Positions 14,573 through 37,873 of a stretch of DNA of 38,512 bases are shown here, one piece after another. Where the stretch lies: the IMG/VR virus record IMGVR_UViG_3300010885_044361, positions 1 to 38,512 of that record. One strand, written 5' to 3'. The stretch is from a virus. Made by a program: the position numbers and the translations under genes. Positions within the stretch are counted from its first letter, which is position 1. Every line of letters begins with the position of its first letter. Under the pieces are notes generated by a model that was not told the DNA's origin, searched no databases, and was given only the letters and a program-made list of their open reading frames with translations.

Positions 14573-17500
14573 ATGGCAATTCAACGAAGAACATTAGATC
14601 TATTACCTGAGATATTTAGAACTAAACCTAACGAAAAGTTTCTAAATGCGACTCTTGACCAATTAGTTCAGCCATCTCAATTACAAAAGATTGATGGATA
14701 TATTGGTCGTAAAGTTGGCTTAGGTGTTTCGGCTGCTGACAGTTATATTTTAGAACCAGATGTAGAAAGAGCAACATATCAACTTGAACCAGGTATTTGT
14801 TATAAAACAGCCGATGGACAATTCACTGAAGATCTTATTACCTATCCTGGACTGATTGATGCATTAACTGTTAGAAGTGCAAACACAACCAGACACGACA
14901 GATTATTTACGAGTGAGTATTATACATGGGACCCGTTTGTTGACTTTGATAAGCTTATAAACTTTAGTCAATATTATTGGTTACCGTCAGGCCCACCATC
15001 TGTAGATGTCAGCTCAACTGAAATTAGTTTAACCGATGAATACACAATTACAAGAAATACAAATTCGTATACGTTTAGTGACATAGCCGGTGACAATCCA
15101 GTTTTAACTGTTATTCGTGGCGGCAACTATAAATTTATAGTTAATCAGACAGGAAACCCATTCTATATTCAAACCGCCCCTGGAGCAGCAGGTTATGTTA
15201 CTGGACAACCTAATCAATCCGCAAGAGATGTATTGGGTGTTTCAAACAATGGTGAAGACAACGGGATTGTTGAATTCCTTGTTCCGACTGCTGGTGCACA
15301 AAATTTTTATTTAAATATGCCAATGGTATCTAAGGTTGACTTAGTTACTAATTTAAGATTTGATCAAATTAATAATCGGCTAGTCAGCGAATTCAATGAT
15401 GAACATAACGGTATTGACTCAATCACAGATCTTAAAAATCGAACACTAATATTTACAAATAGTAATACAGGACCAAAAGAGGATTCAGGTTGGCAAATTC
15501 AAGGACGATTTGACGAATATAATTTTGATGCAAACGATACTGTATTTGACCCAGCAGAAGAAATTACTCTTAAAAGTGATCGCTATAGTGTGTGGCGTAT
15601 TGAGTATGTGTATGATGCAGCTGGCCGAAATCCTTTTATGGTATTACGTAATATTAAAAGCATTAATAATTTAACTAAAGTACATGTGCAATATGGTACT
15701 ACACATAATAATATGTATTTTTATAAAACAGCTGAAGGTTTTTTTGAACAACAGCCATTGATTTCGGCTATTAATGATGTTTTATATTATCAAGATGCTA
15801 ATAATGAAAATAATTTTGGTATAATTCGAATAGTCGATGAAGTTAATCAACTTGAATTAAACATTAATGATATCATTGGAAGAAAAACATACACATCACC
15901 TACCGGTGTTGTATTTACAAATGGATTAAAAGTACAATTTAGGGGTCGTACTTTACCTAATAGCTATCAAGATAACAGTTACTATGTTGAAGGAGTTGGT
16001 AGTTCTATAAAATTAGTAGATATTAGAGATTTAAAAACACCCGAGACATATACTGTATCTGAGACTGTTCCGTTTGATTTGTTTGGTTACGACGAAAGTC
16101 CATGGGACGCTAGTTTGAATGCGCCAATTGATCAAGATTATTTTACTATAAACAGAGCAAGCCCTGACAAAAATGCTTGGTCAAGATCCAATAGATGGTT
16201 TCATGAAAATATTATAACAGCGTCTGCTGAATATAACAACTCTAGTCCAGTTTTAGATCAGACTGCAAGAGCAACACGACCAATCCTTGAATTTAAAGCA
16301 GGACTATGTTTATTTAATCACGGCACAGAAGGAGTAGCCGCAGTTGATATCATTGATTTTCGTTCTACAGATGCAATGAGTTTAGTTCGTGGTAGCAAAA
16401 CCTATCTGACAGACGGGTATCTTTTAACTAACGGTTCTAGAGTTATATTTGCCAATGATACTGACCCTGCCGTTAGAAATAAAATATATAAAGTTGAATT
16501 AGTTGATCCTATAGGAATAACAGTTGATCCATCACAACTTTCAGATCCTATAATTAATCTTACACTTGATACTGACGGCAACATCAATGAAGATCAAGTA
16601 GTTTTTTGTCTAAGCGGAACATCTCTCCAAGGAAAGGCGTATCGATTTAGTGGAGATGAATGGATTTTAGCTCAACAAAAAACTAAAGTAAATCAACCGC
16701 CATTATTTAATATATTTGATATTGACGGAAAAGAGTTAGGTGACCAAAATACATATCCTAGCAGTAATTTCAACGGCACACACTTATTTTCATATTCTAC
16801 AGGATCAGGCCCTGTCGACTCTGTATTAGGCATAAAATTATCATATCTTAATATTAATAATGTTGGCGATATTGTTTTTAAAAATAATCTATATAATGAT
16901 TCCTTTGTTTATACTGAGAATAATATTAGTAGTACTACTAATATTGCTACTGGCTTTATTAGACAATTTGAAGATAGAACTAATTTCTCGTTACTAACCG
17001 GCTGGCAAACAGCAATCACTCCGCTAGACCAGCCACAGATTTTTACTTTTGTCACAGACGAAATTGTTGTCGATAATATTTCATTTAATTGTGATATTGC
17101 TGCGGTCGACCAAGATAATGCCGTAACTGTTTATATTAATAATGAATATATCTTACCTAAGGACTATTCATACATCACTACGTTGGACACAACAGTAATA
17201 ACCCCAACAAAAACTATTGATCCTAATAGTATTATCCATATTCATATTGTAAGTGATCAAGTCAGTAAAATTGCCTATTATGAAATACCTCATAATTTGG
17301 CAGATAACTCAGTTAATATGGAGTTTAAAACAATTACATTGGGCACAATTAGAAACCACTTCGTTAGCCTAGCCCAACGTGTAACTGACCTCAGCGGAGA
17401 TATTCTAGGTAGAAATAATTTAAGAGATCTTGGAAATATTATTCCTTATGGCAGCCAAATTATTGAACATAGTTCACCACTCCAATTTGCTGCTACATTT

Positions 17501-20500
17501 GTGAAAGATGGTAATATTAATTTCTTTAATAGCCTAAACTACTCTGCAAGAGAATATGAAAAATTTAAAAATAAATTAATTGATGCACTTACACACAACG
17601 ATTATCAAGGAACAGCCGCAGATCGACTTGATTCTGCTTTACTTGATATTAATAGTGGTCGAGATCCTAAAAGTTCTTTTTATTGGACAGATACATTACC
17701 GTCAGGCAAAGTTTATGTAGAAACTAACTTTACTATAACACCAATTTCAGATAATCAGTTTGCGTTAACTAGGATTTATGATTTTACTAAAGCAAACTAT
17801 ACTGCAATTTTAGTTTATCTCAATGATGAACTTTTAATTAAAGATTTAGATTATACAGTAGCAGTAGATACAGCTCGCCTTACAATTGAAATTGATTTAG
17901 CAGTTGATGATATTATAACTATTCGAGAGTATGAATCAACTTCAGGTAGTTTTATTCCAAGTACTCCTACAAAATTAGGTCTGTATGACGCTTATGTACC
18001 TGAAATTTTTACAGATGACAGTTATTCCACTCCTCAGACAATAATTCAAGGTCATGATGGGTCCAAAACTATAGCATTAGGTGACAATCGTGACGATGTA
18101 TTGCTTGAATTTGAAAAAAGAATTTTTAATAATTTAAAATTAGTTGGGAATACTGTTCCGTTGCACTATTATGATGTTATTCCTGGTAAATTTAGAACAA
18201 CAGACTACTCAGAGTCTGAAATTACAGAATTAATGTATAATAGCTTTTTGACTTGGACTAGTTGGAATAAGCTTGATTATAAAACGCAAGAGTATGATCA
18301 AGCAAATTCAAAAACATGGAATTATAGTTCGGCCACAGACAGAGTTGATAACAGTCTTCTATTAGGTGGGTGGAGAGGTAATTTAAATAAATTTTATGAT
18401 ACTGATTTACCACATTTACGCCCATGGGAGATGTTGGGATTTAGTATAAAACCAGTCTGGTGGATTAATGCGTATGGCGCAGCACCTTATACTAAAGACA
18501 ATCTTGTATTATGGGATGACCTTGCTACCGGCAAAGTTGCTGATCCGGCCGGGTCTTATTATCTTCCACAATTTGCCAGACCTGGTCTATTAGATATTAT
18601 CCCTACCGGAGACGAAGGTCAACTATTAGATATATTTGATATACTAGTTGCCAACTATGATCGTTTAAGTTTAAAAAAATCCTGGGTTGTTGGAGACCAA
18701 GGACCAGTAGAAACAGCATGGCGCAGATCTAGTACTTGGCCGTTTGCAGTGCAACAATTACTAGCACAAACCAAGCCTGCTCAATATTTTGCATTAAACG
18801 CAGATAGAGATTTGTATAGATACAATGATGACTTAAATCAGTATCTATACGATAATCGATATAGATTAAATAGTACCAATATTGTTGTATACGGCAAAGG
18901 AACTATTAAGCATAGCTACATTAATTGGTGTGTAGATTTCAGTCATCTTCAGGGAGTTGATGCCACACAAAAAATAACTGATATTTTCAATAACACTAAG
19001 GTACAATTAGTTTATAGAACAGGCGGTTTTACTGATAAAAAATATCTTAAGATATTTACAGAAAAGTCTAGTCCAAATTCTTTAAACACAAGTCTATTAT
19101 TACCTGATGAAAGCTATGAGGTTCTTCTTTATAAGAACGAGATATTTGATCGAGTATCATATAGTTCAGTTATTATACAAAAAGTTGATAATGGTTATGC
19201 AGTCTATGGCAATAGCAAACTTAATCTATATTTTAATATATTTGAAAGTGTAATAAATGGAAACTATAGAAGCACCACAGTTGGTGATACAACAATTAAA
19301 ATCCCTAATGATTTTTCTGATAATGTAGTGTTAGTACCGTACGGTTATGTGTTTACTTCTAAAAGTGCTGTTGCAGATTTCCTAATTAGTTATGGGCGTT
19401 GGTTAGAAAGTAAAGGTTTTATATTTGATGATAAACAAAATGATTATTATCTTAACTGGAATCAGATAGTACAAGAATTTTTATATTGGTCTCAACAAGG
19501 TTGGGACATTGGCAGTATTATTAATTTAAATCCTGCGGCCTATCAACTTAAAATATCTAAACGCCGAGCTGTAGTTGCACCAATTATGGGCCAAACAGCA
19601 GACGACTTTGTATTAAATCAAAATTTAACAGTGATTAATAATAACAAATTAGTGTTTGATAGAATCGGTAATGAATTTGTAATTAAATCTACAGATGAAA
19701 ATTCTATTGCATTCATTGATCTTAAATTTACTGCGTACGAACATGTATTGGTATTTAACAATACTAGTATATTTAACGACTTGTTGTACGATCCAACGAC
19801 TGGTGGTCGTCAATTAAGATTAAAAATAGTTGGGTTTAACACAGGTAAGTGGGACGGCACAATCAATGCACCAGGTTTTATTTTTAATCAAAATAATGTA
19901 GCAGATTGGTCTCCTAATAAGAACTATAGTAAAGGTGAAATAGTAAAATATAAAAACATTTATTATAGTGCGGCATACAGAATTCAACCAGCTGATGCAT
20001 TCAATATTGTTGATTGGGTAGCCACAGAATACAGCAGTATTAAACAAGGACTCTTACCTAATTTAAGTTTAAAAGCTGATCAAGTTCGAGACTATTATCA
20101 TAAAAATGTAGCCAATCTTGAACAAGATGCTGATTTACTTGGATTTGGATTAATTGGATTTAAACCAAGAAGCTATATGCAAGGTTTAAATTTAGATGAC
20201 ATTAGTCAAACAAATATCTATAGTGGCTTTGTTAAAAATAAAGGAACACGTCAAGCACTTAATTTATTTAAAAGTGCCAGACTAGAAAAAGAATTAACTG
20301 ACTATCAAATTTATGAAAACTGGGCTATACAGACTGGTCAATTTGGGGCTACTGCAAATCGAAGCTACATTGAGTTACAATTAGACTCATCAATAGTCAC
20401 TGGTAATCCTGGCACGGTCAAAGTTGTGTCTGATGTTAGTGATGTCACAGCAAATCAAAATATTCCCTTAACGAAAATTTATAAATCAAGTTATAATGTC

Positions 20501-23500
20501 ATTGATACAAATATTTTTCCTATCATTGAATATAGAAATATAGATCAAAGTTTGCCAAGTTCGGGATTTGTTAATGTTGATGATATTTCTATTCAAGTAT
20601 TTGATTTGAATGAGCTCACTGATATTATTAATAATCTAGATTCTATTGTTGATGGAACACCAATTTGGGTAGCTAAAGATAACGGATATGAATGGAATGT
20701 TTATAGAATTTCAGTATTAGACCCAACACCAATAACATTATTAGATAATTTAAATGGAACTGCAACATTAGTGTTTGATGGTCATCACAATTTATTTGCT
20801 AACGATATTATTATTATTAAATATTTTCATTCAATACTTGACGGCGCCTATATAGTTAATAGCATTGTTTCTTTAGATAAAATTACAATTAGTCTTTCAT
20901 TACCGGATAGAGTTACAGAAATTGTTGCATCGGGTGTGGCATTTAAATTAAATTCTGCAAGAGTGGAACAACCAAGTGCTATTGCTGATCTTCCTTTTCA
21001 ACTAGAAATCAAAGACGGTGAAAAGATTTGGGTAAACAATATATCTAACGGTAATTGGGGTGTTTTAGAAAAAAATAATGTGTTCGTAGATTCATATCCT
21101 ACAGTCATCGAAGACACTCCCCAACAAGACAGTAACTTTGGATCAAGCGTATCACAATCACCCGACGGAAAAATTGCATTAGTTGGCGCATCTGGTTATA
21201 ATTCGGGCGCAGGCGCAGTTTATGTATTTGGTCAATCCAGTAGTACTGGTGATCTTCAGCCAGGACCAATATTTACCTTAGGTGTTACAGCACAAACAGG
21301 CTATGGCCACATTGTTGAGTCCGGCGGGCTTGGTTGGAATGTAGTTGGTGCGCCACTATCTAAAAGTGAAGAAGGGTATGCAGTATTAATTAGAGAATTT
21401 TTAGAAACTGGTAATTTTGTTGAATGGCAACTACTTACTGTTCCTGTTGGTCGAGGTGACAGTACACAATCAGAGTTTGGTTATAGTGCAGCAATTAGCA
21501 GTGATGGTAGAATATTGTGGGTTGGCGCACCCGGAGTAGATAAAGTATTTGGATACCAGTTAGTTGAATTTGAATTACAAAAAATGCGTATTCTAGGTGA
21601 CGGACAAACAAAATCATTTACTATCAGTGATAACATTATGGTTTCGACTGCATATGAAATATCTGTTGTTGTAAACAATAATTTACGTACCCCAATAACA
21701 GATTATACCTTAGCCGCCGGAAAAGTTATATTTGACTCTGCACCAAGTCTTGGTTCAAGAATTGAAATAAACAGAAAACATTTTTATTCTGCCGATGGCG
21801 ATAGCAGCACAACTATATTTGTTCTTGATATGTTATACGGAGCAACTAATATTGATACACTATCAGTTAAAGTTGCTAATCAGTTACTTCGTCCTTATTA
21901 TGATTATACTTTTAATTCAGCCAATCGAAACTTAACTCTTAATAGTGCCCCCGCAATAGGCAGCTTATTAACAGTAGAAGCCCGTGACCACTTTAAATAT
22001 TTTACAACCATAACAAGTCCGATAGCGAACCCTCGACGTTTTGGATCAAGTATAGCCACCACCGGGGACGGTAGACAGGTTGTCATTGGTGCAATTGATG
22101 CAGAAGGAAATGATAGTACCGATACTGTGGGCCAAGCATTTATTTTTGATAGAGATGTTCAAAGATTTATAATTACAAATTTAAGCACCTTGAGTTATAC
22201 TACAACATCTGCCATTGTTGGCAGACCAGAGGTTTTAATTAATAATAAAAGACAAGTGAACGGTAATTATTATTTTAAAAACAAAAGTTATACTTCAGTA
22301 ACCAACACTATTACATTTAATAGTAATATAATTAACATGGGCGACTTTGTTGATATAGAAACTAATAATATGGCTTATGTAAAAACATTAAATCTACCTG
22401 GAGATATTCAAAGTGCTCAATTTGGATACGCAATTGCTATATGCGAAACTAACTGTTCTATATACGTTGGTGCTCCTAATGTTAGTTTACTTAATGCTGA
22501 TAGTTCAGGAAACGTATCTCGATTTATTAATCAAAGTAGATTATACGGAAGTATTCTTGGAACAGTTACTTCTCCAACAGTAACAATTGGTAATGTTATC
22601 AGAATTAATAATGTTTATATAACACTAACAGGAACAACATTAAATTCTGTTGTAGATGATATTAATGATGCTGGCATACCAAATGTTGTGGCGAGTAATA
22701 CAAATAATAAAATCTATATAAGTTTAATTAATCTAAAAGCAGCACCACTGACTAACAGATTATACATTCTTCCCGGAAGCGGAACTGCCATTGATGATCT
22801 TGGGCTAGACTTGTTCCCTTATATGCAAACGTTGGTTAATCCATTCCCAAAAGAATATGCACATTTTGGCTCTAGTATTGATGTTAGCAGTAATGCTCTT
22901 AGTATAGCCATTGGCGCCCCTAATGCCCCAACAAATTTAATAGTAACATTAGATGATAATGCAACGTTCCTAGATAGTAAAAGCACAGTTATTAAAGATA
23001 TTCAAACAGATAGTGGCGCAGTATACACATTTGATTATTTAGGTTCATCAGATGATACGTTTCTGAACCCTGGACGATTTGTTTTTGGTCAACAAGTAAC
23101 TGATATCTTTGTTCAACCTCAGTCTTTATATGGAACATCGGTTAATTACTCTAATGGTAAATTACTCATTGGTAGCCCAGCGTATCATAAACCTGACAGC
23201 GAATCACAAATTGGTCGTTTAGTACGATTCAATAATACAGAACAAGTTAGTAGTTGGACAGTGGCAAGGGAAGAAGTCGCTCAAGTTAATGTAGAATTAA
23301 TAGATAGTGTCTTCATTTACAATCATCCAACAAACAAAATTTTAACATATTTAGATTATATTGATCCACTTCAAGGAAAAATACTAGGACCAGCGCAACA
23401 AAATATTGATATCATATCACCAACTGATCCGGCCGCATACAATAACGGAACAAAAAATATCTATGATAGTACCTGGGGCAACGAACGGGTTGGTATAATT

Positions 23501-26500
23501 TGGTGGGATGTAACAAATAGTAAATTTATTGACTACCACCAATCTACAATTGATTATAGAGCGAAAAGATTAAGTCAATTGTTTAAAGGATCTAGTATCG
23601 ATGTTTACCAATGGATCCAAAGTGATGTTCATCCAGCAGAATATGCCGGTGATGGAACACCAAAGAGCACAACCTCTTATAGCATATTAAGTGATGTTAA
23701 TAATAATGGTGTGTTAGTAACCCAATATTATTTCTGGGTCAAAGGACTAACATCAGTTAATAAAAACCGTGGTAAAACACTAAGCACCACAACCATTCAA
23801 CAATATATTGAAAATCCCAAATCAAGTGGAATTCCATTTATTGCGTTCCTAGATAAAAATTCAGTTGCATTATATAATACAGAAGCATTTATATCTGATA
23901 CTAATAGTGTATTGCATATAGAATTTGATAAAATAGAAACAGAAAATAACATACATGCTGAATATGAGTTAATTCGTGAAAATGACCCTTCTCAATTTTT
24001 AAGTACACAAATATATAGAAAATTTCAAGACTCACTCTGTGGTAAAGATACTGCCGGTAATTTAGTACCTGATCCAAAATTGTCATTGACAAATATTTCA
24101 GGTGTTGGGTTTAGACCAAGACAAACAATGTTTATTGACAGGTATACTGCATTACGTAATTATATAACATCAATTAATCGAGTATTATCTAAACACCCTA
24201 TTGTAGAAATGAAATCTTTAACTTTATTAAATAGTAAAGAAGAAGAACCAACAAAGGAAGCGGCTGTCTGGGATTTCTTAGTCAATGATCTTGATGAGTT
24301 AAGTTATCAGAATTTAAACGCAGTTTCTACGGGATATCGCTATTTAATTAAATCCGATTTATCAAATGGCGGCAGATGGACAATATACACAGTCCAGGCA
24401 GATAAGTCATTATTGTTAACTAGAATACAAAATTTTAATACAACAGAATATTGGGAATATATTAATTGGTATAAAGATGATTATGATCTTTTAAATAAAC
24501 CAATAAAGGAAGTAAGCACATATTCTCTCTTACTGACATTAAGCAACAGTGTCAATGTCGATGATATTGTTAAAGTTACAGCAAATGCGCAAAATAAATT
24601 TGAACTTTATCGTTTAGATACTGACGGGTGGACCAGAGTTGGATTAGAAAACGGCACGATTAAAATAAGCGATGGCTTATTTGACTATTCCATTGACAAT
24701 CATGGATTTGATATTGAAGTATTTGACGCACAACACTGGGATGAAGAACCAACCATTGAAACTAGGCAGATTATCAAAGCTATTAATGAAGAATTACTCA
24801 TTGATGATCTAGCAAATTATAGAATAGATTCTATAATTTTAATGTTTAATTATATCACTAGTACACAAACTTCAATTGAGTGGCTTTCTAAAACATCATT
24901 AATTGATGTACATCATACCTTGCGAGAACTTAAACCATTTACTATTTTAAAACAAGATAACCAAACATTTATTGAAGACTACATTCAAGAAGTTAAACCA
25001 TACCATGCTCAGGTTAAAGAATTTAATTTAACCTATAAAGGCGATGATAATTATGTTGGTGATACCACTGACTTTGATTTGCCAGCATTTTATAACAACG
25101 AACTAGGTAAATTTATTAGTCCGCGTCATATGTTAAAAGCAGCAATTGTCAGAGGCGAAGGTGCATATTTACTTTCAGACCCAATTTGGGATAGTGGTTT
25201 ATACTCACAGTGGAAAAATAATTTTACATTAAGTATAGACTCAGTGAACATAACCGATGGCGGAAGTGGTTACACAACTAAACCAACTGTGGTTATTATA
25301 GGTGAATGTACTACTCCAGCTACAATGGTGTCTAAAATTAGCACCGCCGGAAAAGTTATTAGTGTAGAAGTAATATATTCTGGTGTGGGCTACACGTCTA
25401 CCCCATTAATTACATTCGTTGGCGGTAATGGTGCAGGAGCCACAGCCTACGCAATTTGCAGTCCGGGAACTGTGCGATCATACAAAACTACAATTAAATT
25501 TGATCGAACAGATCTCACTACCAGCGTTGTTGATTGGGAACCACTGACAGCATACGATCAAAATCAATTACTTAGATATAATAATAAAGTTTGGAAAGCA
25601 AGTTATGCAGACGGGTCAACATTAAGTAAAACCTCTTTTGATCCATTGGATTATACTGCAGCCTCAATTGATGAATTGTCAGGTGTTGATAGAACTATGG
25701 GCTTGTATATTCCCAGAGAAAGCTCACCAGGGATTGATTTAGCACTATTAGTATCAGGAACAGACTATCCCGGTGTTCAAGTTTTAGGTCCAAGGTTTAA
25801 TCAAAATACTGGCTTGGATGTGGGCAATTTTGATATTAATCCATATGATAACCTAGAGTTTGGCCCAGAAGGTAAACCAACTTATTCTGATTCAATACTT
25901 GATACAATTTATAGTAGACAGGATTTCCTAGAAGCATACCTTGGAGCAACGACAGACATTGATGTTGTTGGCGGTGCATACGTTGATAACTATAATAGTC
26001 ATGCGCCCGAAGAATTATTACCTGCAGCAATTTTTGATACGTTAAGTCTTAGAGTTAAAACTCGTCCGGGAGCCGACTATCTTAATGTAGGGTTTAGCGC
26101 AGACGAGAAAACACGATTCTTTGAATATGATGGAGTTACGACTACTTTTTACTTTGGCGACTTAGTTGTCGATCCGTTTGCTGTTCGCCTTTACAATATA
26201 ACACAAGGAACAACACTACGATTTGAATATGTAACTCCGGCCGCTGGTGTAATTGATTATACTATTAATTGGCTTAATAAAACAATCACCATACTTAGTG
26301 GAGCAACTGTTGGCGAAACTATTGGCATCACTAGTTTTGGTATAGGTGGTGGTAATCAATTAATATTAGAACATTATGCTGTTGGGGATTATTTAAATTC
26401 AGATGGCACTGTTACTATTATTGTTCCGGTGAGGCATACTGAAATTAAAGAGGCAATGATTAAATGTAATGGCTCAAGAATAACTAATTATATCTTTGAA

Positions 26501-27949
26501 GAGTATGAAACATACCATACTAAAATAATTTTTGGCGCTGTTGATACTGACAGTGACGGCATACAAAATCCAGATAAGGTTAAATATTTTGGAACACAAC
26601 CATTGGAAATTGGTGATTACTTACATGTTTGTATTATGGGCTTTGCCGTCGGTGAAACCTCATCCTTATATGTAACACACAATGAGGGAATTGTTCATAC
26701 ATCAAGTCATCCAAGTACACAATATTTTTATGTTACTGATGCAACAATAACTTCTTACTCGCTAAGCCAAGATATACAAGGAACAAATCCAGACACGGCG
26801 TTAGTAGAAATTAATGGTCAGCGAGCAAGACCGCCCGAAGGATTCGAATGGTATGGTGATGCTACAACTGTAGATTTTACTCTTTCTCTTGAGACACTTA
26901 CTCCAGTAAGTTCAATTGCAGACAATGATATCCGAGTCTATGTTGATGATATACAAAAACGCCTATATGAAGACTTTATTGTATCTTTAGATGACGGTAG
27001 TAGTGACCGAGTAGTTACTTTTACTACTGCTCCTGCCGATGAGGCTCATATTAAGATATTTGTAAGAACATCTTCAGACTATAGTATTTCAAGACTTGCT
27101 AATGTTTCTAATTTAAACATGATTACATTTAAAACACCACTAACTGTTGGTGACCATATTATGATTACGACATATAACAATACCACCGAATTAGATCAAA
27201 TAATTAAAGTATACCAAGGTCCAACTCAATCAGGTTATACTACTATGCAAGCGTATGATGCAGTAGAATATGATAGTGATAATTTTGATAAACAAGAAGG
27301 TGTTACTATTGATCAAAGTGTTTATGATTTAGGTCGAGAAATAACTGATGCGTCAAGACTTACTGTACATGTCAACGGAATTAAGAAATATTCTGGGGTC
27401 CATTGGAAAATGCAAGCTGACGACTCGAGTAAACTTGAATTTTACTCAATCGACGTACAAATTGCAGATGTAGTTACAGTTACATTAAAATCAGAAATTG
27501 TTGTGCCAAAAAAACTAGAGTTCCGTTTATTTAAAGATATGCGAGGAAATACTGCAATTTACCGAGGTGACGAAGGCAATGCAACAACTTTAGCTCAACA
27601 AGTAGATACCACTGATGATGTAATTTATGTTTACGACGTTACAAAATTAGCTACTCCTAATCTTGAATCAAACGTTTACGGAGTAGTCATAATTGATGGT
27701 GAACGAATCACTTATAAATATATAAATGCAAGTAATAATTCCATTAGTGGACTTCGACGTGGGACAGCAGGAACAGCAATAAGCTCACATGCAGCCAACG
27801 CAATATGCCATAATATAAGTATAGATATGTATTTAAATTGGTCATACAATAAAATTTGGTATGCTCAAGGTGCTAGTACCGCATCTGACGGCAGGCCGTT
27901 ACAAAAAACTGTAACAGTTCCGGCTAAATTCTTATTAGGACTCGATTAA
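14573..27949 (+). CDS. Giant multidomain baseplate/tail protein (gp7 position)
   Basis: At 4458 aa this gene fills a third of the window. The first residues (LDLLPEIFRTKPNEKFLNATL) resemble the start of tail protein I/gp7-type wedge proteins, and the gene follows gp6 as gp7 does. Further parts seen: a cupredoxin-like segment at about 172-250 (VIRGGNYKFIVNQTGNPFYI); at about 2187-2886 seven FG-GAP-like repeats such as FGSSVSQSPDG...VGAS that suggest a beta-propeller; at least nine roughly 70-80-residue beta modules with a VxVNN...DYT...I core; a GGSGYT/SGVGYTSTP pair at about 3562-3628; a DTDSDGIQNPD loop near 3990; and near the C terminus GLRRGTAGTAISSHAAN. It has no in-frame TAG. A GGA lies six bases before the ATG. 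It probably forms a wedge base plus arm that reaches outward; T4 gp7 is only 1032 aa. Exact role is inference. Confidence 0.7.
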   Translation: MAIQRRTLDLLPEIFRTKPNEKFLNATLDQLVQPSQLQKIDGYIGRKVGLGVSAADSYILEPDVERATYQLEPGICYKTADGQFTEDLITYPGLIDALTVRSANTTRHDRLFTSEYYTWDPFVDFDKLINFSQYYWLPSGPPSVDVSSTEISLTDEYTITRNTNSYTFSDIAGDNPVLTVIRGGNYKFIVNQTGNPFYIQTAPGAAGYVTGQPNQSARDVLGVSNNGEDNGIVEFLVPTAGAQNFYLNMPMVSKVDLVTNLRFDQINNRLVSEFNDEHNGIDSITDLKNRTLIFTNSNTGPKEDSGWQIQGRFDEYNFDANDTVFDPAEEITLKSDRYSVWRIEYVYDAAGRNPFMVLRNIKSINNLTKVHVQYGTTHNNMYFYKTAEGFFEQQPLISAINDVLYYQDANNENNFGIIRIVDEVNQLELNINDIIGRKTYTSPTGVVFTNGLKVQFRGRTLPNSYQDNSYYVEGVGSSIKLVDIRDLKTPETYTVSETVPFDLFGYDESPWDASLNAPIDQDYFTINRASPDKNAWSRSNRWFHENIITASAEYNNSSPVLDQTARATRPILEFKAGLCLFNHGTEGVAAVDIIDFRSTDAMSLVRGSKTYLTDGYLLTNGSRVIFANDTDPAVRNKIYKVELVDPIGITVDPSQLSDPIINLTLDTDGNINEDQVVFCLSGTSLQGKAYRFSGDEWILAQQKTKVNQPPLFNIFDIDGKELGDQNTYPSSNFNGTHLFSYSTGSGPVDSVLGIKLSYLNINNVGDIVFKNNLYNDSFVYTENNISSTTNIATGFIRQFEDRTNFSLLTGWQTAITPLDQPQIFTFVTDEIVVDNISFNCDIAAVDQDNAVTVYINNEYILPKDYSYITTLDTTVITPTKTIDPNSIIHIHIVSDQVSKIAYYEIPHNLADNSVNMEFKTITLGTIRNHFVSLAQRVTDLSGDILGRNNLRDLGNIIPYGSQIIEHSSPLQFAATFVKDGNINFFNSLNYSAREYEKFKNKLIDALTHNDYQGTAADRLDSALLDINSGRDPKSSFYWTDTLPSGKVYVETNFTITPISDNQFALTRIYDFTKANYTAILVYLNDELLIKDLDYTVAVDTARLTIEIDLAVDDIITIREYESTSGSFIPSTPTKLGLYDAYVPEIFTDDSYSTPQTIIQGHDGSKTIALGDNRDDVLLEFEKRIFNNLKLVGNTVPLHYYDVIPGKFRTTDYSESEITELMYNSFLTWTSWNKLDYKTQEYDQANSKTWNYSSATDRVDNSLLLGGWRGNLNKFYDTDLPHLRPWEMLGFSIKPVWWINAYGAAPYTKDNLVLWDDLATGKVADPAGSYYLPQFARPGLLDIIPTGDEGQLLDIFDILVANYDRLSLKKSWVVGDQGPVETAWRRSSTWPFAVQQLLAQTKPAQYFALNADRDLYRYNDDLNQYLYDNRYRLNSTNIVVYGKGTIKHSYINWCVDFSHLQGVDATQKITDIFNNTKVQLVYRTGGFTDKKYLKIFTEKSSPNSLNTSLLLPDESYEVLLYKNEIFDRVSYSSVIIQKVDNGYAVYGNSKLNLYFNIFESVINGNYRSTTVGDTTIKIPNDFSDNVVLVPYGYVFTSKSAVADFLISYGRWLESKGFIFDDKQNDYYLNWNQIVQEFLYWSQQGWDIGSIINLNPAAYQLKISKRRAVVAPIMGQTADDFVLNQNLTVINNNKLVFDRIGNEFVIKSTDENSIAFIDLKFTAYEHVLVFNNTSIFNDLLYDPTTGGRQLRLKIVGFNTGKWDGTINAPGFIFNQNNVADWSPNKNYSKGEIVKYKNIYYSAAYRIQPADAFNIVDWVATEYSSIKQGLLPNLSLKADQVRDYYHKNVANLEQDADLLGFGLIGFKPRSYMQGLNLDDISQTNIYSGFVKNKGTRQALNLFKSARLEKELTDYQIYENWAIQTGQFGATANRSYIELQLDSSIVTGNPGTVKVVSDVSDVTANQNIPLTKIYKSSYNVIDTNIFPIIEYRNIDQSLPSSGFVNVDDISIQVFDLNELTDIINNLDSIVDGTPIWVAKDNGYEWNVYRISVLDPTPITLLDNLNGTATLVFDGHHNLFANDIIIIKYFHSILDGAYIVNSIVSLDKITISLSLPDRVTEIVASGVAFKLNSARVEQPSAIADLPFQLEIKDGEKIWVNNISNGNWGVLEKNNVFVDSYPTVIEDTPQQDSNFGSSVSQSPDGKIALVGASGYNSGAGAVYVFGQSSSTGDLQPGPIFTLGVTAQTGYGHIVESGGLGWNVVGAPLSKSEEGYAVLIREFLETGNFVEWQLLTVPVGRGDSTQSEFGYSAAISSDGRILWVGAPGVDKVFGYQLVEFELQKMRILGDGQTKSFTISDNIMVSTAYEISVVVNNNLRTPITDYTLAAGKVIFDSAPSLGSRIEINRKHFYSADGDSSTTIFVLDMLYGATNIDTLSVKVANQLLRPYYDYTFNSANRNLTLNSAPAIGSLLTVEARDHFKYFTTITSPIANPRRFGSSIATTGDGRQVVIGAIDAEGNDSTDTVGQAFIFDRDVQRFIITNLSTLSYTTTSAIVGRPEVLINNKRQVNGNYYFKNKSYTSVTNTITFNSNIINMGDFVDIETNNMAYVKTLNLPGDIQSAQFGYAIAICETNCSIYVGAPNVSLLNADSSGNVSRFINQSRLYGSILGTVTSPTVTIGNVIRINNVYITLTGTTLNSVVDDINDAGIPNVVASNTNNKIYISLINLKAAPLTNRLYILPGSGTAIDDLGLDLFPYMQTLVNPFPKEYAHFGSSIDVSSNALSIAIGAPNAPTNLIVTLDDNATFLDSKSTVIKDIQTDSGAVYTFDYLGSSDDTFLNPGRFVFGQQVTDIFVQPQSLYGTSVNYSNGKLLIGSPAYHKPDSESQIGRLVRFNNTEQVSSWTVAREEVAQVNVELIDSVFIYNHPTNKILTYLDYIDPLQGKILGPAQQNIDIISPTDPAAYNNGTKNIYDSTWGNERVGIIWWDVTNSKFIDYHQSTIDYRAKRLSQLFKGSSIDVYQWIQSDVHPAEYAGDGTPKSTTSYSILSDVNNNGVLVTQYYFWVKGLTSVNKNRGKTLSTTTIQQYIENPKSSGIPFIAFLDKNSVALYNTEAFISDTNSVLHIEFDKIETENNIHAEYELIRENDPSQFLSTQIYRKFQDSLCGKDTAGNLVPDPKLSLTNISGVGFRPRQTMFIDRYTALRNYITSINRVLSKHPIVEMKSLTLLNSKEEEPTKEAAVWDFLVNDLDELSYQNLNAVSTGYRYLIKSDLSNGGRWTIYTVQADKSLLLTRIQNFNTTEYWEYINWYKDDYDLLNKPIKEVSTYSLLLTLSNSVNVDDIVKVTANAQNKFELYRLDTDGWTRVGLENGTIKISDGLFDYSIDNHGFDIEVFDAQHWDEEPTIETRQIIKAINEELLIDDLANYRIDSIILMFNYITSTQTSIEWLSKTSLIDVHHTLRELKPFTILKQDNQTFIEDYIQEVKPYHAQVKEFNLTYKGDDNYVGDTTDFDLPAFYNNELGKFISPRHMLKAAIVRGEGAYLLSDPIWDSGLYSQWKNNFTLSIDSVNITDGGSGYTTKPTVVIIGECTTPATMVSKISTAGKVISVEVIYSGVGYTSTPLITFVGGNGAGATAYAICSPGTVRSYKTTIKFDRTDLTTSVVDWEPLTAYDQNQLLRYNNKVWKASYADGSTLSKTSFDPLDYTAASIDELSGVDRTMGLYIPRESSPGIDLALLVSGTDYPGVQVLGPRFNQNTGLDVGNFDINPYDNLEFGPEGKPTYSDSILDTIYSRQDFLEAYLGATTDIDVVGGAYVDNYNSHAPEELLPAAIFDTLSLRVKTRPGADYLNVGFSADEKTRFFEYDGVTTTFYFGDLVVDPFAVRLYNITQGTTLRFEYVTPAAGVIDYTINWLNKTITILSGATVGETIGITSFGIGGGNQLILEHYAVGDYLNSDGTVTIIVPVRHTEIKEAMIKCNGSRITNYIFEEYETYHTKIIFGAVDTDSDGIQNPDKVKYFGTQPLEIGDYLHVCIMGFAVGETSSLYVTHNEGIVHTSSHPSTQYFYVTDATITSYSLSQDIQGTNPDTALVEINGQRARPPEGFEWYGDATTVDFTLSLETLTPVSSIADNDIRVYVDDIQKRLYEDFIVSLDDGSSDRVVTFTTAPADEAHIKIFVRTSSDYSISRLANVSNLNMITFKTPLTVGDHIMITTYNNTTELDQIIKVYQGPTQSGYTTMQAYDAVEYDSDNFDKQEGVTIDQSVYDLGREITDASRLTVHVNGIKKYSGVHWKMQADDSSKLEFYSIDVQIADVVTVTLKSEIVVPKKLEFRLFKDMRGNTAIYRGDEGNATTLAQQVDTTDDVIYVYDVTKLATPNLESNVYGVVIIDGERITYKYINASNNSISGLRRGTAGTAISSHAANAICHNISIDMYLNWSYNKIWYAQGASTASDGRPLQKTVTVPAKFLLGLD

Positions 27950-28682: not shown

Positions 28683-30035
28683 ATGAGCTATACAATAAAT
28701 TTAACAAATGGGTCAATTTTTGCCACAGTTGCCGACGGTACTATTAATACAGATAGTTCATTGACAATCGTTGGTAAAAACTATGCAGGTTATGGTGAGT
28801 TTCTCAATGAAAATATGATGAAACTATTAGAATCTGGAGCAAATACTACTCAACCAGCTTCACCACTTATTGGTCAACTTTGGTTTGATAAAACAGGCGG
28901 CTTATTAAAAGTTTATAATGGTACTACATTTAAAAATTTAGGATCAGCTACAGCTGCATCAGCGGCTCCATCAAGTAATGTTACTGGTGATTTATGGTAT
29001 GATTCAGTTAACGCACAATTAAATGTGTATGATGGTTCAGATTTCATTTTAGTTGGTCCATCATTTACTGCTGGCACAGGTGTGTCGGGCGCTATTGTTG
29101 TCACTCTTGAAGATAATGCATCAGTTGATCACGTCGTGGTTAAATTAATGGCCGAAGATGGTAATGTAGCTATTATTAGTAAAGATGCTTCGTTTACTCC
29201 TGCTTCTGCTATTACAGGATTTGCAACAATTGGTCCAGGTCTAAACTTGAGTACTAGTGTAGCAAATGCTGTATTTAAAGGCACAGCAACAAATGCGGAA
29301 TTGTTAGATAATATTGATTCAACTGGCTTCTTAAGCGCAATAGCCAATGATACAACTTCAGGTACATTAGGTGTACTGAATGACACTGGTCTAGCTGTTG
29401 GAGTTGATAGTGATTTAAGAATTAGTGTAAGTGGCTCCGATGTAACAATTGCTAACCAAACATCAGATGGCGATATTACTTTAAAAGTAAATGACGGTGG
29501 TGTTACAACTACTGTTCTTAATATTGACGGAGCAACAAGCGCCGTACTTCCAGGAGCAAACAATACGATTAATATGGGTAGTTCTGTATTGAAATTTGCA
29601 ACTATATACGCTACTACCTTTACTGGGCTAGCATCATCAGCCCAATACGCCGACTTAGCTGAAAGATTTGAGTCTGACGAGATTTTGCTTCCAGGTACTG
29701 TAGTGGAACTAGGTGGCGCAGCAGAAATTACTAAAGCAAAAAAAGAATTAACAGGTGAGGTATTTGGTGTTATTAGTACTAGGGCAGCATATTTAATGAA
29801 TGCAAGTGCTGGTAATAATGACACACATCCAGCAGTAGCAATGCAAGGTCGAGTACCAGTTCGAGTAATAGGAACAGTAAGCAAAGGTGATCGTTTAGTA
29901 TCAGCAGGCAACGGACTTGCACGGTCAGCTAAAGAAAATGAAGCTACTGCATTTAATGTAATTGGCAGAGCACTAGGATCAAAAGCAACAGTTGAAGAAG
30001 GACTTGTAGAGGCAATTGTTGTAATCTCAAGTTAA
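28683..30035 (+). CDS. Tail fibre-like protein with C-terminal G2-like region
   Basis: This 450-aa protein looks like a tail fibre or fibre-tip protein. Near residues 62-127 two copies of a short motif, IGQLWFDKTGGLLKVYNG and TGDLWYDSVNAQLNVYDG, are typical of fibre proteins in marine T4-like phages. The middle is Thr/Ser/Gly/Asp-rich and beta-like. The C-terminal part begins at SSAQYADLAERFESDEI and continues with PGTVVELGG, EVFGVIST and HPAVAMQGRVPVRV; this arrangement resembles the peptidase G2-like chaperone/tail domain that ends many fibres. Whether it cuts itself is not visible. AAAGGA precedes the ATG. The unknown adsorption target would be the host surface. Confidence 0.65.
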   Translation: MSYTINLTNGSIFATVADGTINTDSSLTIVGKNYAGYGEFLNENMMKLLESGANTTQPASPLIGQLWFDKTGGLLKVYNGTTFKNLGSATAASAAPSSNVTGDLWYDSVNAQLNVYDGSDFILVGPSFTAGTGVSGAIVVTLEDNASVDHVVVKLMAEDGNVAIISKDASFTPASAITGFATIGPGLNLSTSVANAVFKGTATNAELLDNIDSTGFLSAIANDTTSGTLGVLNDTGLAVGVDSDLRISVSGSDVTIANQTSDGDITLKVNDGGVTTTVLNIDGATSAVLPGANNTINMGSSVLKFATIYATTFTGLASSAQYADLAERFESDEILLPGTVVELGGAAEITKAKKELTGEVFGVISTRAAYLMNASAGNNDTHPAVAMQGRVPVRVIGTVSKGDRLVSAGNGLARSAKENEATAFNVIGRALGSKATVEEGLVEAIVVISS

Positions 30036-30061: not shown

Positions 30062-31057
30062 ATGTCATACGCAACAGGTCAAACCATCTTAGATGATGAA
30101 TACAATACGTTTATTACCGGCGGAGCTGATGGAACTCCTAATCATGCTGTTGCCAATTTAAATTCTCTCTGGGGAAGTGGTAGCGGTAATCTTGGTTACG
30201 GTCAAGCAGGTGGACCTACTTCAGTTTCAGCTGGAACTACAATATCAGCTACGCAGTGGAATTCTTTGTTAGATAAAATTGAAAATATTGGTTCACACCA
30301 AAATACAGCAGTTGCCGCGTATGCTACTCTAACTACCGCTAATACAATTACTGCGTTAGGCACAGTGAGTTCTAACTTAACAAGTATTTTTGCAGCTCGA
30401 AATAATGCAAATGCATTTGGAACTGATATTACAGCAGGTGGTGTATCTACTAGTACCAGTACTTGGTATACTTCAATGACACATAATTTTACAGTGACAT
30501 TTGCCAATGATGCTAGCCAACGATATTTCTTCAATGCGGGTGGTGCAATAGCATTTACATTTGCTCGTAGTGGCGGAACATCAAATGATAAAAACGCAGA
30601 ATGGGCAGATCTTTGCTCTAGAGCCGGAACTTGGTTTTTAACTGGTTCGTCTAATCATACTATTGGAGGAGTCAATTATACTGGCACTACCAAAATTGGT
30701 GGCAACACTGGTGGAGCAGGAACATCGATTACTACAATAAATTATCACCAATTAACAACATCACCTCAGGTTATTGCTACGCAATATGCTGATACTTCAC
30801 CGTACACTGGTAATTATATAACATTATCAGCAAGTAAAACAAGTGGTAATACACCACAATTAACATTTACTGTTAATATGTACGATGCAGCGGATGATAC
30901 TGGTAATCCAGAATTCATAACAGACGCCGATCCAGCTAGTCTTGACAAAGTTGATGGTTCTATGGTAGTTACTATGATAGCTAAACAACCAGCTACAACA
31001 GTTTTATCAAATACTTGGGGAACTCCAACACTAGCATCATCAAATAGTTCAAGTTAA
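30062..31057 (+). CDS. Putative tail fibre/adhesin protein
   Basis: This 331-aa protein is Thr/Ser/Asn/Gly-rich and beta-like, with few charged residues, as in phage adhesins. The N terminus MSYATGQTILDDEYNTFI and ISATQWNSLLDKIENIG suggest a conserved attachment domain; the rest (from about 115) has strands such as HNFTVTFANDASQRYFFN and ITLSASKTSGNTPQLTFTVN. I cannot assign a named family. AAGGAA lies nine bases before the ATG. It is the last gene before the terminator at 31077 and 26 bases after the preceding fibre gene. It may carry the receptor-binding tip or be the target of the downstream modification genes. Confidence 0.55.
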   Translation: MSYATGQTILDDEYNTFITGGADGTPNHAVANLNSLWGSGSGNLGYGQAGGPTSVSAGTTISATQWNSLLDKIENIGSHQNTAVAAYATLTTANTITALGTVSSNLTSIFAARNNANAFGTDITAGGVSTSTSTWYTSMTHNFTVTFANDASQRYFFNAGGAIAFTFARSGGTSNDKNAEWADLCSRAGTWFLTGSSNHTIGGVNYTGTTKIGGNTGGAGTSITTINYHQLTTSPQVIATQYADTSPYTGNYITLSASKTSGNTPQLTFTVNMYDAADDTGNPEFITDADPASLDKVDGSMVVTMIAKQPATTVLSNTWGTPTLASSNSSS

Positions 31058-31134: not shown

Positions 31135-31433
31135 TGGATAATATCTCAAGCACAATTAAAGCACGGTTTGATCATCAAGCAAGCCGACAAATTCTTAAAG
31201 AAAAATACCAAGCTAAAATGATTTTTACTGAGCAAGGTGGTATGTGGCGCGCCGGGCCCGAATTAATCATATTACTCAATTCTATCAATCAGGATGAGTT
31301 AATTCTATTGGATCTATATGATTCGCCAATATTAGTAAATAAACAAAAATTACTAACTATAGCTATAGAACGATGGCAGGAACAACTAAATGCCTGGAAA
31401 GTTGAACTAGCTGAAACTAATAAACAACGATGA
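31134..31433 (+). CDS. Small unknown protein, first gene of the modification operon
   Basis: This 99-aa protein is not recognised. It has a charged helical N terminus (SSTIKARFDHQASRQILKEK), a central strand region with AGPELIILLNSINQDELILLD, and a charged helical C terminus. It has no signal peptide or membrane segment. It starts just after the terminator and TATAAT box and overlaps the next gene by four bases (ATGA), so it belongs to the same operon as the glycosyltransferases. The ATG has no ribosome site; an internal start (Met29) is possible. Confidence 0.6.
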   Translation: MDNISSTIKARFDHQASRQILKEKYQAKMIFTEQGGMWRAGPELIILLNSINQDELILLDLYDSPILVNKQKLLTIAIERWQEQLNAWKVELAETNKQR

Positions 31434-32188
31434 CACGCGGTGTATTACTTTATGCATTTAATAATGAAACTATAAACTATAAGAAAATAGCTGAATGGTC
31501 ATCTAAAAGAATTGAGAAATATCTTGGATTGCCAACTACAATAATTTCAGATTTAACGTTAGCTAAAAGTGGAGGCAGACGAATAATGCACCCAACCGTT
31601 GATAAACAATACTCAACATGGTATAATGCAGCTCGTCATACTGCCTGGGAACTAAGTCCTTATGATCAAACAATTATTTTAGATGTTGATTATATTGTTT
31701 CTAGCGATCAACTATTAAAATTATTTGATAGTAGTCAATACTTTGCCTGCCATCAGACAGTAGTCGATGCAACTGGTCGTAACCAGTTTTCTGCACACGA
31801 AAAATTTGGAGAACTACAGTTTCCACAAACGTGGGCAACTGTTTGTTATTTTACCCGTGATCCAAGAACTAAGAAAATATTTGACATTATTAAAATGATA
31901 CTAGAAAACTATAGTCATTATGCTAATTTATATAAATTTGCAAAACAGCCGTTTAGGAATGATTATGCTTTTAGTATTGCATTATCAATATTAAGTGGGC
32001 ACCGAATAACAAATGACTATAATATACCTTGGCCTTTATTAAATGTGTCAACTGATGTAACTTTTAATGTCAATGAAGATAGAATTAATTTAAATTATCT
32101 TAAACAACAAAGATCACAATATCTTTCTATTTTAGGGCAGGACTTACATGTGTTAAATAAACTTTGTCTAGGAGAACTTGTTGCGTAA
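31430..32188 (+). CDS. Putative glycosyltransferase (GT-A type), first of three
   Basis: This 252-aa protein resembles GT-A nucleotide-sugar transferases found in marine phages. A DxD-type motif lies in TIILDVDYIV at about residues 85-87, preceded by a Rossmann-like N terminus (GVLLYAFNNETINYKKIAEW) and followed by WATVCYFTRDPRTKKIFDII and a late FRNDYAFSIAL. DxD in this type binds the metal and sugar nucleotide. The sugar and acceptor are unknown. It overlaps the genes on both sides (four bases before, several after), so it is translated with them. Confidence 0.6.
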   Translation: MTRGVLLYAFNNETINYKKIAEWSSKRIEKYLGLPTTIISDLTLAKSGGRRIMHPTVDKQYSTWYNAARHTAWELSPYDQTIILDVDYIVSSDQLLKLFDSSQYFACHQTVVDATGRNQFSAHEKFGELQFPQTWATVCYFTRDPRTKKIFDIIKMILENYSHYANLYKFAKQPFRNDYAFSIALSILSGHRITNDYNIPWPLLNVSTDVTFNVNEDRINLNYLKQQRSQYLSILGQDLHVLNKLCLGELVA

Positions 32189-32990
32189 ATTTCTTGCAGA
32201 ACGTGGCTATTTAATATTAGCACAAGACCATAATGACCAAACATATATAACTTGTGCTCGTGCTCTGGCTAAAAGTATACGTTGGTTCATGCCAACAGCT
32301 AAAATTTGTCTTGTGGGAACATCTGATGATCCTGTGTTTGATTATTGCTTGCCTCTGCCCCACGGCGATCAGGGTTTTCTAGCAAATGATTGGCAATTAT
32401 TTGAGATTAGCCCATTTAGAGAAACTATTAAATTAGAAGCTGATATGATACTTAATGGTAGTATAGATCATTGGTGGACAATATTAGAAAAAAGAGATTT
32501 AGTTGTTGCCCGGGGCACACAAGACTTTTATGGTTATCAAAGCTCAGTTAAATTTTATCGATCGCACTTTGAATCAAATCAATTACCTGATGTATATAAT
32601 GCTATAACCTATTGGCGTTGGTCGGAATCAGCTGTAACTTTTTTTAAAACTGTTAGATCATTGTTTGAGAATTGGAATCAGGTAGTATTAGCATTAAAAG
32701 GGTGGAATCAAAAAGAACCAGACACAGATACAGTATATGCATTAGCAATGATATTATTAGGCAAAGAAAAATACACCCTTCCAATAAATTTTCCACAATT
32801 TGTACATATGAAAGGTAAAATTAATTATTGTCATGGCCAGGACTGGACTAAAGAACTTGTTTGGGAGTTAAATGAACAGGGATTAAGAATTAATACAATA
32901 CAACAAACAATACCAACACATTATTTTATTAAACAATTTGCCAATCAACTTGAGGACCACTATGACACACTTCTGGGAAGCCGCTCTTAA
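32178..32990 (+). CDS. Putative glycosyltransferase-like protein, second of three
   Basis: This protein (up to 270 aa) has the same layout as its neighbour: YLILAQDHNDQTYITCARALA at the N terminus, where sugar transferases of this type have their first Rossmann strand and helix, and KLEADMILNGSIDHWW near residues 85-100 where an acidic ExD stands in place of DxD. LPHGDQGF and HMKGKINYCHG are further conserved-looking segments. The start is TTG: either TTG 32178 or the next TTG 32181, with GGAG at 32171-32174 better spaced for the second. It overlaps the first transferase. Substrate unknown. Confidence 0.5.
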   Translation: MLRKFLAERGYLILAQDHNDQTYITCARALAKSIRWFMPTAKICLVGTSDDPVFDYCLPLPHGDQGFLANDWQLFEISPFRETIKLEADMILNGSIDHWWTILEKRDLVVARGTQDFYGYQSSVKFYRSHFESNQLPDVYNAITYWRWSESAVTFFKTVRSLFENWNQVVLALKGWNQKEPDTDTVYALAMILLGKEKYTLPINFPQFVHMKGKINYCHGQDWTKELVWELNEQGLRINTIQQTIPTHYFIKQFANQLEDHYDTLLGSRS

Positions 32991-33291: not shown

Positions 33292-34186
33292 TATAGCAGA
33301 CCTAGATTGTGTTTATCTAAGTTACGATGAGCCACAAAAAGAAGAATTCTGGATTAAAATACAAAATATGGTCCCTTGGGCCAAACGTGTAGATGGCGTT
33401 AAAGGGTCAGACTCAGCACACAAAGCCGCAGCGGCAGCAAGTGACACTGAACGTTTTATATTAATAGATGGTGACAACTTGCCAGATGCAAAATTTTTTA
33501 ATTTAACCTTAGACTTACCTGACGATACCTGGAATTCAGCAGTATTTCGTTGGCGTGCCCGTAATCATATTAATGCGCTTATGTATGGTAATGGTGGCAT
33601 AAGTTGCTGGACACGAGAGTTTGTAAATAATATGCGCACACATGAAAATTCTAACGGGGATGAAAATACGCAAGTAGAATTTTGTTTTGATCCACTTTAT
33701 TGGCCCATGCATGATTGTTATAGCGTAACATATCCAAATGCTACACCTTTTCAGGCCTGGCGTGCAGGATTTAGGGAAGGGGTTAAAATGTGCTTAGATC
33801 GTGGCAGTCGCCCTAGTCTTAGTGAGTTTCAAGATCGGATACATCGCAGTAATCTTGATAATTTATCAATTTGGCATAATGTTGGTGCAGATGTTGAAAA
33901 TGGCCATTGGGCCATGGCAGGCGCACGCCTTGGTACATATATGACTATGTTAACTGAATGGGATTATAGAGAAGTTCAATGGTTTGATTTTTTAGATAAA
34001 AAATGGGAAACAGTACAAAAGCAAGATGTGCAGTCGATGCTTTCTCAATACGGAGATAGTTTGTCTAGATTAGGTATGGAAATAGTTAATATGACTGCAA
34101 CTCAGAGTAAATTTTTCAAACATCATTATAGATCAAATTGGCAAAATCTTGGTCCAATGGTGCGTGAGGTTGATGTAAACAAATGA
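33278..34186 (+). CDS. Putative glycosyltransferase-like protein, third of three
   Basis: This 302-aa protein has an N-terminal VYLSYDEPQKEEFWIKI and a DxD motif IDGDNLPD at residues 63-70, which fits a GT-A sugar-nucleotide binding site. WRARNHINALMYGNGG and WTREFVNNMRTHEN follow, and an acidic/aromatic C-terminal half ends in SKFFKHHYRSNW. It resembles phage-encoded sugar transferases. It overlaps the radical SAM gene that follows by four bases (ATGA), which ties sugar transfer and radical chemistry in one transcript. Confidence 0.58.
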   Translation: MTQIDIADLDCVYLSYDEPQKEEFWIKIQNMVPWAKRVDGVKGSDSAHKAAAAASDTERFILIDGDNLPDAKFFNLTLDLPDDTWNSAVFRWRARNHINALMYGNGGISCWTREFVNNMRTHENSNGDENTQVEFCFDPLYWPMHDCYSVTYPNATPFQAWRAGFREGVKMCLDRGSRPSLSEFQDRIHRSNLDNLSIWHNVGADVENGHWAMAGARLGTYMTMLTEWDYREVQWFDFLDKKWETVQKQDVQSMLSQYGDSLSRLGMEIVNMTATQSKFFKHHYRSNWQNLGPMVREVDVNK

Positions 34187-36784: not shown

Positions 36785-37872
36785 AAACGAATGCAAATAA
36801 CTGGACCTGCGGAGCGATCGACCACGGAGTCACCTTTTATCAAAATGGAACTATAACGCCCTGTTGTTTCATTGATTGGAGTTATAAAAAAGATATTAAA
36901 GACATAGGTAATGATCCGTTTGCTGATCTTAGGACTGATTCTGCACCGAGTGTATGTAATAAATGTATAGATGCAGAAGCCCGCGGCGCTATTAGTTATA
37001 GACAGAACTTTAATTCTAAAAAAACTAGTGCACCAGGATATCAATTTATTGATATAAGGAATAGCAATTTATGTAATATAAAATGTAGGACTTGTTGCCC
37101 AGAAAATAGCAGTCAATGGGCCTTAGAATTAGGACATACGATCCCAATCAAACAACAAGATATTTTATCATACAAAGATTATATATTAACACCTACAGTA
37201 CACAGCATATATTATACTGGTGGTGAACCTTTTATTAATGTTGAGCATTGGGAGATATTAGAAAAGTTAATTAGTTTAGGATATAGTAAAAATATTGAAT
37301 TACAATACAATTCAAATTTGACTACATTAAAATTTAAAGATAAGAATATATTAGAGTTGTGGAAGAATTTTAAACAAGTAACAGTAATGGTAAGTATTGA
37401 TGCCGTAGGAGAAAAGTTTAATTTAATTAGATCGGGTGCAGATTGGCAAGATGTTATTGATAATCTTTTAAAATTAAAAACATATCAGCAGTCAACTAAT
37501 AATTTATCATTGACTATTGCTACAACTGTAAGTATTTTAAATATCTGGTTCATTGATGAATTGTTAGAATATTTTAAAGATTTTAAAGTAAATTTAACAG
37601 ACTTGTATTTTCCAGATTATTTAAGTTTATCAGCAATACCAGATTCGTTAAAAGATCAAGCACTAGCATGTGTTGATCAAATTGAAAAATTATATTTAGA
37701 TAAAAATAAAATTAAATTTATGAGATCACAAATTAATAATAATGTAAATAAACAGCTCTTTAAGGATACGATATCACATACATTATTACTAGATAATATT
37801 AGAAATGAGGCATTATTTGACTTATTACCATTCAAAAAAGAAGCAATAGCACAGGTATTTAAAAATCTCTAA
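36778..37872 (+). CDS. Radical SAM protein, type B (third of four)
   Basis: This 364-aa protein is a paralogue of the previous one. The N-terminal SPASM-like part has C11, a turn with QNGTITPCC (C29, C30) and CNKC at 60-63; the radical SAM cysteines are C99, C103 and C106 in CNIKCRTC, followed by an extra C107; TGGEPF is at 147-152. The core has VMVSIDAVGEKFNLIRSGADW, as in type B. DNA is very AT-rich here (about 24% GC by hand count over nine lines). It overlaps the previous gene by seven bases; the next begins one base after its TAA. Confidence 0.82.
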   Translation: MVKTNANNWTCGAIDHGVTFYQNGTITPCCFIDWSYKKDIKDIGNDPFADLRTDSAPSVCNKCIDAEARGAISYRQNFNSKKTSAPGYQFIDIRNSNLCNIKCRTCCPENSSQWALELGHTIPIKQQDILSYKDYILTPTVHSIYYTGGEPFINVEHWEILEKLISLGYSKNIELQYNSNLTTLKFKDKNILELWKNFKQVTVMVSIDAVGEKFNLIRSGADWQDVIDNLLKLKTYQQSTNNLSLTIATTVSILNIWFIDELLEYFKDFKVNLTDLYFPDYLSLSAIPDSLKDQALACVDQIEKLYLDKNKIKFMRSQINNNVNKQLFKDTISHTLLLDNIRNEALFDLLPFKKEAIAQVFKNL

Positions 37873-37873
37873 T

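Follow-up and report, generated by a model that had tools for sequence, protein, structure and literature searches.

The baseplate locus and its giant virion protein

The stretch of DNA analysed here, referred to below as the window, is a virus contig of 38.5 kb (38,512 nucleotides) that contains the baseplate module of a large T4-like myophage. A gp53-like gene starts at position 5404, a gp5-like hub gene at 8453, the gp25 gene at 10740 and the gp6 gene at 11169. Directly after gp25 and gp6 lies an intact open reading frame (14573-27949, plus strand), which encodes a giant baseplate-associated virion protein of 4458 amino acids. Its profile match to phrog_10938 ("virion structural protein") scores 1085 bits over four stretches. 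Cultured relatives in this family are exclusively jumbo or large myophages (such as RaK2, 121Q, GAP32, CBB, PA5oct, Atu_ph07, and SCTP-2), and their gene also follows gp6 directly wherever the gene order was read (PA5oct, RaK2, 121Q, and GAP32). The product had been called a virion protein in the first-pass annotation. This name is well founded by orthology, because the record of PA5oct gp355 marks its detection in virions by mass spectrometry and 21 peptides of CBB_236 were obtained from virions (PMC5259590). The gene position agrees with that of T4 gp7, although comparison of the protein with a single gp7 sequence as target gave an hhalign probability of 0.3%. A DNA-level search of phage records with the window returned no match, and sequence searches against the PDB yielded nothing useful.

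Two local similarities were seen elsewhere in this protein. Residues 3549-3618 (25217-25426) match phrog_460 ("head closure Hc2") with an E-value of 2.8e-9, which is unexpected for a baseplate protein; this stretch may be a small repeat domain that is shared. Residues 1779-1799 (19907-19969) give a carbohydrate-binding CBM_5_12 match in two stretches (24.9 bits, below the cut-off of 26.2), and the same annotation is found on a gp6-like protein of Vibrio phage 2.275.O.

A seven-bladed FG-GAP propeller

The middle of the giant protein contains seven FG-GAP-type repeats, as first read from the sequence. Their FG/YG...GA(P) motifs start at residues 2189, 2244, 2302, 2490, 2617, 2765, and 2853; the positions originally given differ from these by no more than 1-2 residues. 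A Pfam scan of the propeller region alone matched FG-GAP_2 (PF14312) in four stretches (E 1e-14, 54.9 bits against a cut-off of 23), whereas scanning the whole 4458-residue protein missed FG-GAP, with the sub-threshold CBM_5_12 match as its sole outcome. The same family scored above its cut-off in all six relatives scanned with Pfam (36-59 bits). Blade profiles built from 53 relatives recognise one another with hhalign probabilities of up to 97%; the weakest pair, blades 2 and 5, is the only one at 2-4%. By contrast, 70 hhalign comparisons of the blades with ten control segments from the same protein all remained at or below 5.7%. The profiles thus indicate a relationship among the seven blades that does not extend to the control segments. 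An in-house blade HMM detects seven of seven blades in the window and in two of the relatives (L002 and L003), and none in ten cultured orthologues.

Residues 2100-3040 were modelled with AlphaFold from 53 non-identical relatives belonging to uncultured phages (35-51% identity), giving a mean pLDDT of 83.6 and a pTM of 0.79. The suggestion that the repeats would close an integrin-like ring is borne out by profile, model and fold search alike: the model is a closed seven-bladed ring of the integrin type, which is well supported as a prediction. Among solved structures, the best 50 matches listed by Foldseek were all integrins (top E 7.7e-12). VIA-align superposed the model on integrin alphaM (Z 25.1, 358 residues, rmsd 2.8) and on a designed seven-bladed propeller (Z 24.8, 283 of 286 residues, rmsd 2.2). 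These matches cover model residues 70-799, corresponding to residues 2169-2898 of the protein, and together with the model and the Pfam match they define the propeller with its inserts (21077-23266, plus strand).

All blades are encoded on the plus strand. Blades 1 (FG motif, 21137-21274), 2 (YG, the most divergent, 21302-21436), 6 (FG, 22865-23098), and 7 (YG, 23129-23272) are continuous. Blades 3, 4, and 5, all with FG motifs, are each divided into strands A-C (21476-21571, 22040-22171, and 22421-22528) and a strand D that is assigned from the model (21989-22015, 22346-22393, and 22820-22837). Apart from strands D, the assignments are based on the model, the blade profiles and the motif; strands A-C of blade 5 include Cys2624 and Cys2628 in the A-B loop. 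Following the propeller, a conserved C-terminal flank (23285-23902, plus strand) is common to cultured jumbo phages that lack the propeller.

Calcium-binding loops, which had been proposed as a feature to look for in the blades, did not materialise: none of the seven A-B loops contains DxDxDG in any of the 53 sequences, and calcium binding by the blades was rejected on this motif count. The A-B segments have a near-fixed length of 17 or 19 residues. Conservation is lower in the top-face BC and DA loops (0.38-0.40) than in the bottom AB loops (0.47). In the A-B loop of blade 5, Cys2624 and Cys2628 (22442-22456) are invariant in 53 of 53 relatives; judging from the sequences, they possibly form a disulphide or a metal site at the place where integrins have calcium loops.

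Domains inserted in the blades

The first reading had also placed extra domains between blades 3/4, 4/5, and 5/6. The domains exist, but the secondary structure of the model puts them inside blades 3, 4, and 5, in the C-D hairpins, rather than between blades. The inserts comprise model residues 233-373, 435-492, and 554-650, and emerge on one common face. All three lie on the plus strand, at 21575-21988 (blade 3), 22172-22345 (blade 4), and 22529-22819 (blade 5); the last shows a flagellin-like IN motif by eye, unmatched by Pfam. In six relatives, a further stretch (median 58 residues, maximum 67) is inserted after residue 2290, where blade 2 gives way to blade 3.

Modelled alone, the blade-3 insert gave a pLDDT of 96 and two tandem domains with the predicted fold of the T7 gp17 N-terminal/tailspike adaptor. 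The model matches T7 gp17, HRP29, and CBA120 TSP4 over 62-70 residues (Z 8-10, rmsd 1.5-2.1), and a domain of cyanophage A4 is also among its fold matches at Z 8-10. The T7 tail-fibre N-terminal family (PF03906) matches this insert in 16 of 40 relatives at E-values up to 0.01 (best 1.6e-8), with no match for the copy in the window. In TSP4 (XD2/XD3) and T4 gp10, such domains dock other spikes, gp11 and gp12 (PMC8825819). Many phage tails contain the adaptor fold, and its presence is not proof of docking.

Distribution and evolution of the propeller

The ten cultured orthologues align with the window protein up to about residue 2010 and again from about residue 2895, with no alignment between. 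The propeller is absent from all ten, and its flanks are kept. At the corresponding site, a short linker is found in the RaK2-type phages, and long repeats of an unrelated kind in Atu_ph07 and Phosso. In four propeller-free relatives (L143, L107, L129, and L098), repeated domains, flagellin-IN-like by eye, occupy this site, in the roughly 900 amino acids ahead of the C-terminal flank. The site seems to be a hot spot for insertion.

A single scan confirmed 205 contigs as relatives of this region, and the propeller-bearing relatives found are all metagenomic contigs. A second sample of 80 uncultured relatives was seeded by the C-terminal flank of propeller-free phages and scored with the blade HMM and a propeller HMM. 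In a tree of the C-terminal flank (135 rows, quick search, non-random sampling), a single branch with an SH-aLRT of 98 splits 76 propeller-bearing from 46 propeller-free rows, with 13 unclear rows left uncounted. Shuffled labels required 37 changes on this tree against the one observed; the tree is unrooted, and one gain and one loss are indistinguishable on it. As an inserted module, the propeller sets one phage branch apart, and the collection searched contains no cultured phage of this branch. It provides a clean single-change trait in the phrog_10938-type family and points to domains amenable to expression and testing.

Evolutionary rates were compared in 26 pairs of relatives with no row reused, although L043/L059 and L044/L060 appear to be near-duplicate pairs. 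The blades have a median identity of 0.87 and a dN/dS of 0.08, the same as the N-terminal 1100 residues (0.87 and 0.08), and the C-terminal 900 residues have 0.82 and 0.10. The segments beside the propeller are more similar (identity 0.89-0.90, dN/dS 0.05), so that the blades are slightly faster than their immediate surroundings; they are lower in identity than residues 1100-2080 in 25 of the 26 pairs. Overall, identities range from 0.87 to 0.90 in the N-terminal parts and from 0.82 to 0.89 in the C-terminal parts, against 0.87 in the blades. These values indicate ordinary purifying selection on the blades, which evolve like the rest of the protein, and the idea of a hypervariable adhesin finds no support in them.

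In 22 of 26 pairs, similarity in the blade-3 insert falls below that in the blades (p 5e-4); inserts 4 and 5 are overall no faster than the blades. In individual pairs, insert 4 falls to 51% identity between flanks of 97-98% (L043/L059), and insert 5 falls to 61% (L065/L066). In none of the 26 pairs had close relatives exchanged the disc. The combination of replaced inserts and slow blades shows that the disc is a conserved frame and that some of its inserts are exchangeable.

Comparison with known propellers

Like the headpieces of integrin alpha chains (alpha5, alphaM, and alphaV), the phage domain is predicted to consist of seven FG-GAP blades in a closed ring with extra domains growing from propeller loops. 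In integrins the extra alpha-I domain lies after blade 2 and before blade 3, and the phage inserts are situated in the C-D hairpins of blades 3-5. Several integrin blades have calcium-binding DxDxDGxxD loops, whereas the phage propeller has none, and unlike integrins it is encoded in a baseplate gene cluster. Because the calcium loops are missing, the phage propeller is not assigned to the integrins.

Among phage proteins, the nozzles of SU10 and T7 are tail proteins that are likewise built on a propeller core, of seven blades in SU10, and have inserted domains together with a fibre dock (PMC9509320). They differ in being podophage rings around the DNA channel, in having their inserts between blades 2 and 3, and in not being described there as FG-GAP; the SU10 and T7 nozzles themselves are reported to have no detectable sequence similarity (PMC9509320). 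The phi11 receptor-binding protein (RBP) and phiKZ gp131C likewise have propellers in or at the periphery of the baseplate (PMC4901313). However, the former is five-bladed and belongs to a trimeric spike, the latter is a C-terminal seven-bladed domain whose function is only proposed, and neither is an insert in a giant protein adjacent to gp6. RaK2 ORF070, 121Q gp582, PA5oct gp355, CBB_236, and the Atu_ph07 protein, all of phrog_10938, share the post-gp6 position and alignable flanks, but have a short linker or unrelated modules where the propeller would be.

The BFVD contains predicted FG-GAP-annotated propellers from uncultured phages and giant viruses, such as A0A6J5S3H5; the closest to the present one is A0A6J5L8L4 (E 1e-33). 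Unlike the domain described here, most of these are separate proteins or come from giant eukaryotic viruses, and they are predictions only, on which literature searches turned up no paper. Propellers in phage tails and FG-GAP annotation in proteins of uncultured phages and giant viruses are already known, and searches of the openly licensed literature found no description of a phage virion with an FG-GAP propeller of the integrin type. The fold is a known one in a new context, where it defines a branch of an uncharacterised protein family. The analysis assigns an integrin-type propeller to the baseplates of uncultured phages that form one branch.

Possible function

What the analysis shows is a seven-bladed FG-GAP module, of predicted structure, inserted in a giant virion protein encoded after gp25 and gp6. 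Its most probable role, which we favour with a modest degree of confidence, is that of a rigid baseplate platform displaying domains for the docking of fibres or pins. We infer this function because of the gp6 neighbourhood, the conserved disc, the exchangeable docking-type inserts and the precedent of the SU10 nozzle. The disc would be a structural element of the outer baseplate wedge, holding on a single face three sets of inserted domains that project from the C-D hairpins of blades 3, 4, and 5, which follow one another in the ring. Proteins of fibres, pins or the adjacent wedge would dock on these domains; the disc would be conserved, and the blade-3 insert, and occasionally the others, would be exchanged to track changing partners. 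Such a propeller would be independent of calcium, in contrast to those of integrins. Weighing against this role, the propeller is dispensable in the family, as all cultured relatives examined do without it, and inserts 4 and 5 do not overall outpace the blades. If the platform role is correct, it helps explain why baseplate proteins of this family exceed 4000 residues.

The first-pass annotation had left the choice between a receptor-binding and an assembly hub, and the ordinary rates and docking-type inserts favour the assembly, or platform, half. The main rival reading, a less likely one, is that the propeller serves the baseplate in receptor binding or surface adhesion and contacts a host surface protein or glycan in the manner of the integrin or phi11 propellers. 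Integrin headpieces are its nearest solved folds, the propellers of the phi11 RBP and phiKZ gp131C are proposed binders of receptors or sugars (PMC4901313), and the top-face BC and DA loops are the less conserved ones. A contact surface could also explain why the blades are faster than the adjoining segments. Nevertheless, the blades are about as slow as the rest of the protein, with a dN/dS near 0.08, and disc exchange among close relatives was not seen in the pairs compared; the calcium site is absent, the propeller lies in the middle of the 4458 residues instead of at a C-terminal tip, and Pfam finds no depolymerase or lectin domain in it. A more specific and somewhat less likely form of host binding would have an integrin-like, metal-independent recognition module gripping a host surface ligand from the baseplate wedge throughout a branch of uncultured large phages, with the exchangeable domains on one face tuning specificity. 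If host binding were true, the propeller would be a new kind of phage receptor module.

Least probable of all, the propeller would be a lineage-specific spacer or bulky decoration, an interchangeable filler with no specific partner at a tolerant insertion site. What other phages have at that site fits such a role: Atu_ph07 and Phosso carry unrelated long repeats there, additional uncultured relatives carry repeat modules of other kinds, and the RaK2-type phages have short linkers. Retention of the propeller by all members sampled from one branch (76 rows, with one change on the tree) argues against it, as do the strong purifying selection on the blades and the presence of invariant residues, exemplified by the Cys2624/2628 pair in 53 of 53 sequences.

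Other genes in the window

Downstream of the giant gene, a 450-amino-acid putative fibre protein (28683-30035) has a Peptidase_G2 autoproteolytic domain near its C-terminus (26.2 bits, cut-off 25). The next open reading frame (30062-31057, 331 amino acids) is present in 29 of 31 close propeller-bearing loci and in only one of 21 more distant ones, with two weak matches in propeller-free loci. It was considered as a protein specific to propeller phages and rejected on the count of one in 21; it is instead a marker of the sub-branch of the window. Two adjoining open reading frames of 252 and 270 amino acids (31430-32990) have weak phrog_1903 matches, look glycosyltransferase-like by eye and are common to many relatives. 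Upstream, on the minus strand, an SbcC/gp46-like gene (527-2296) appears to be divided between two open reading frames of 452 and 124 amino acids, with a Walker A motif in the shorter one. At the other end of the window, consecutive open reading frames with radical-SAM features (34183-38512) form an unusual neighbour for a baseplate module and are present in few relatives. Pfam gives scores for three of them, of which two exceed the cut-off and one also matches SPASM; a fourth, truncated by the window end, looks similar by eye.
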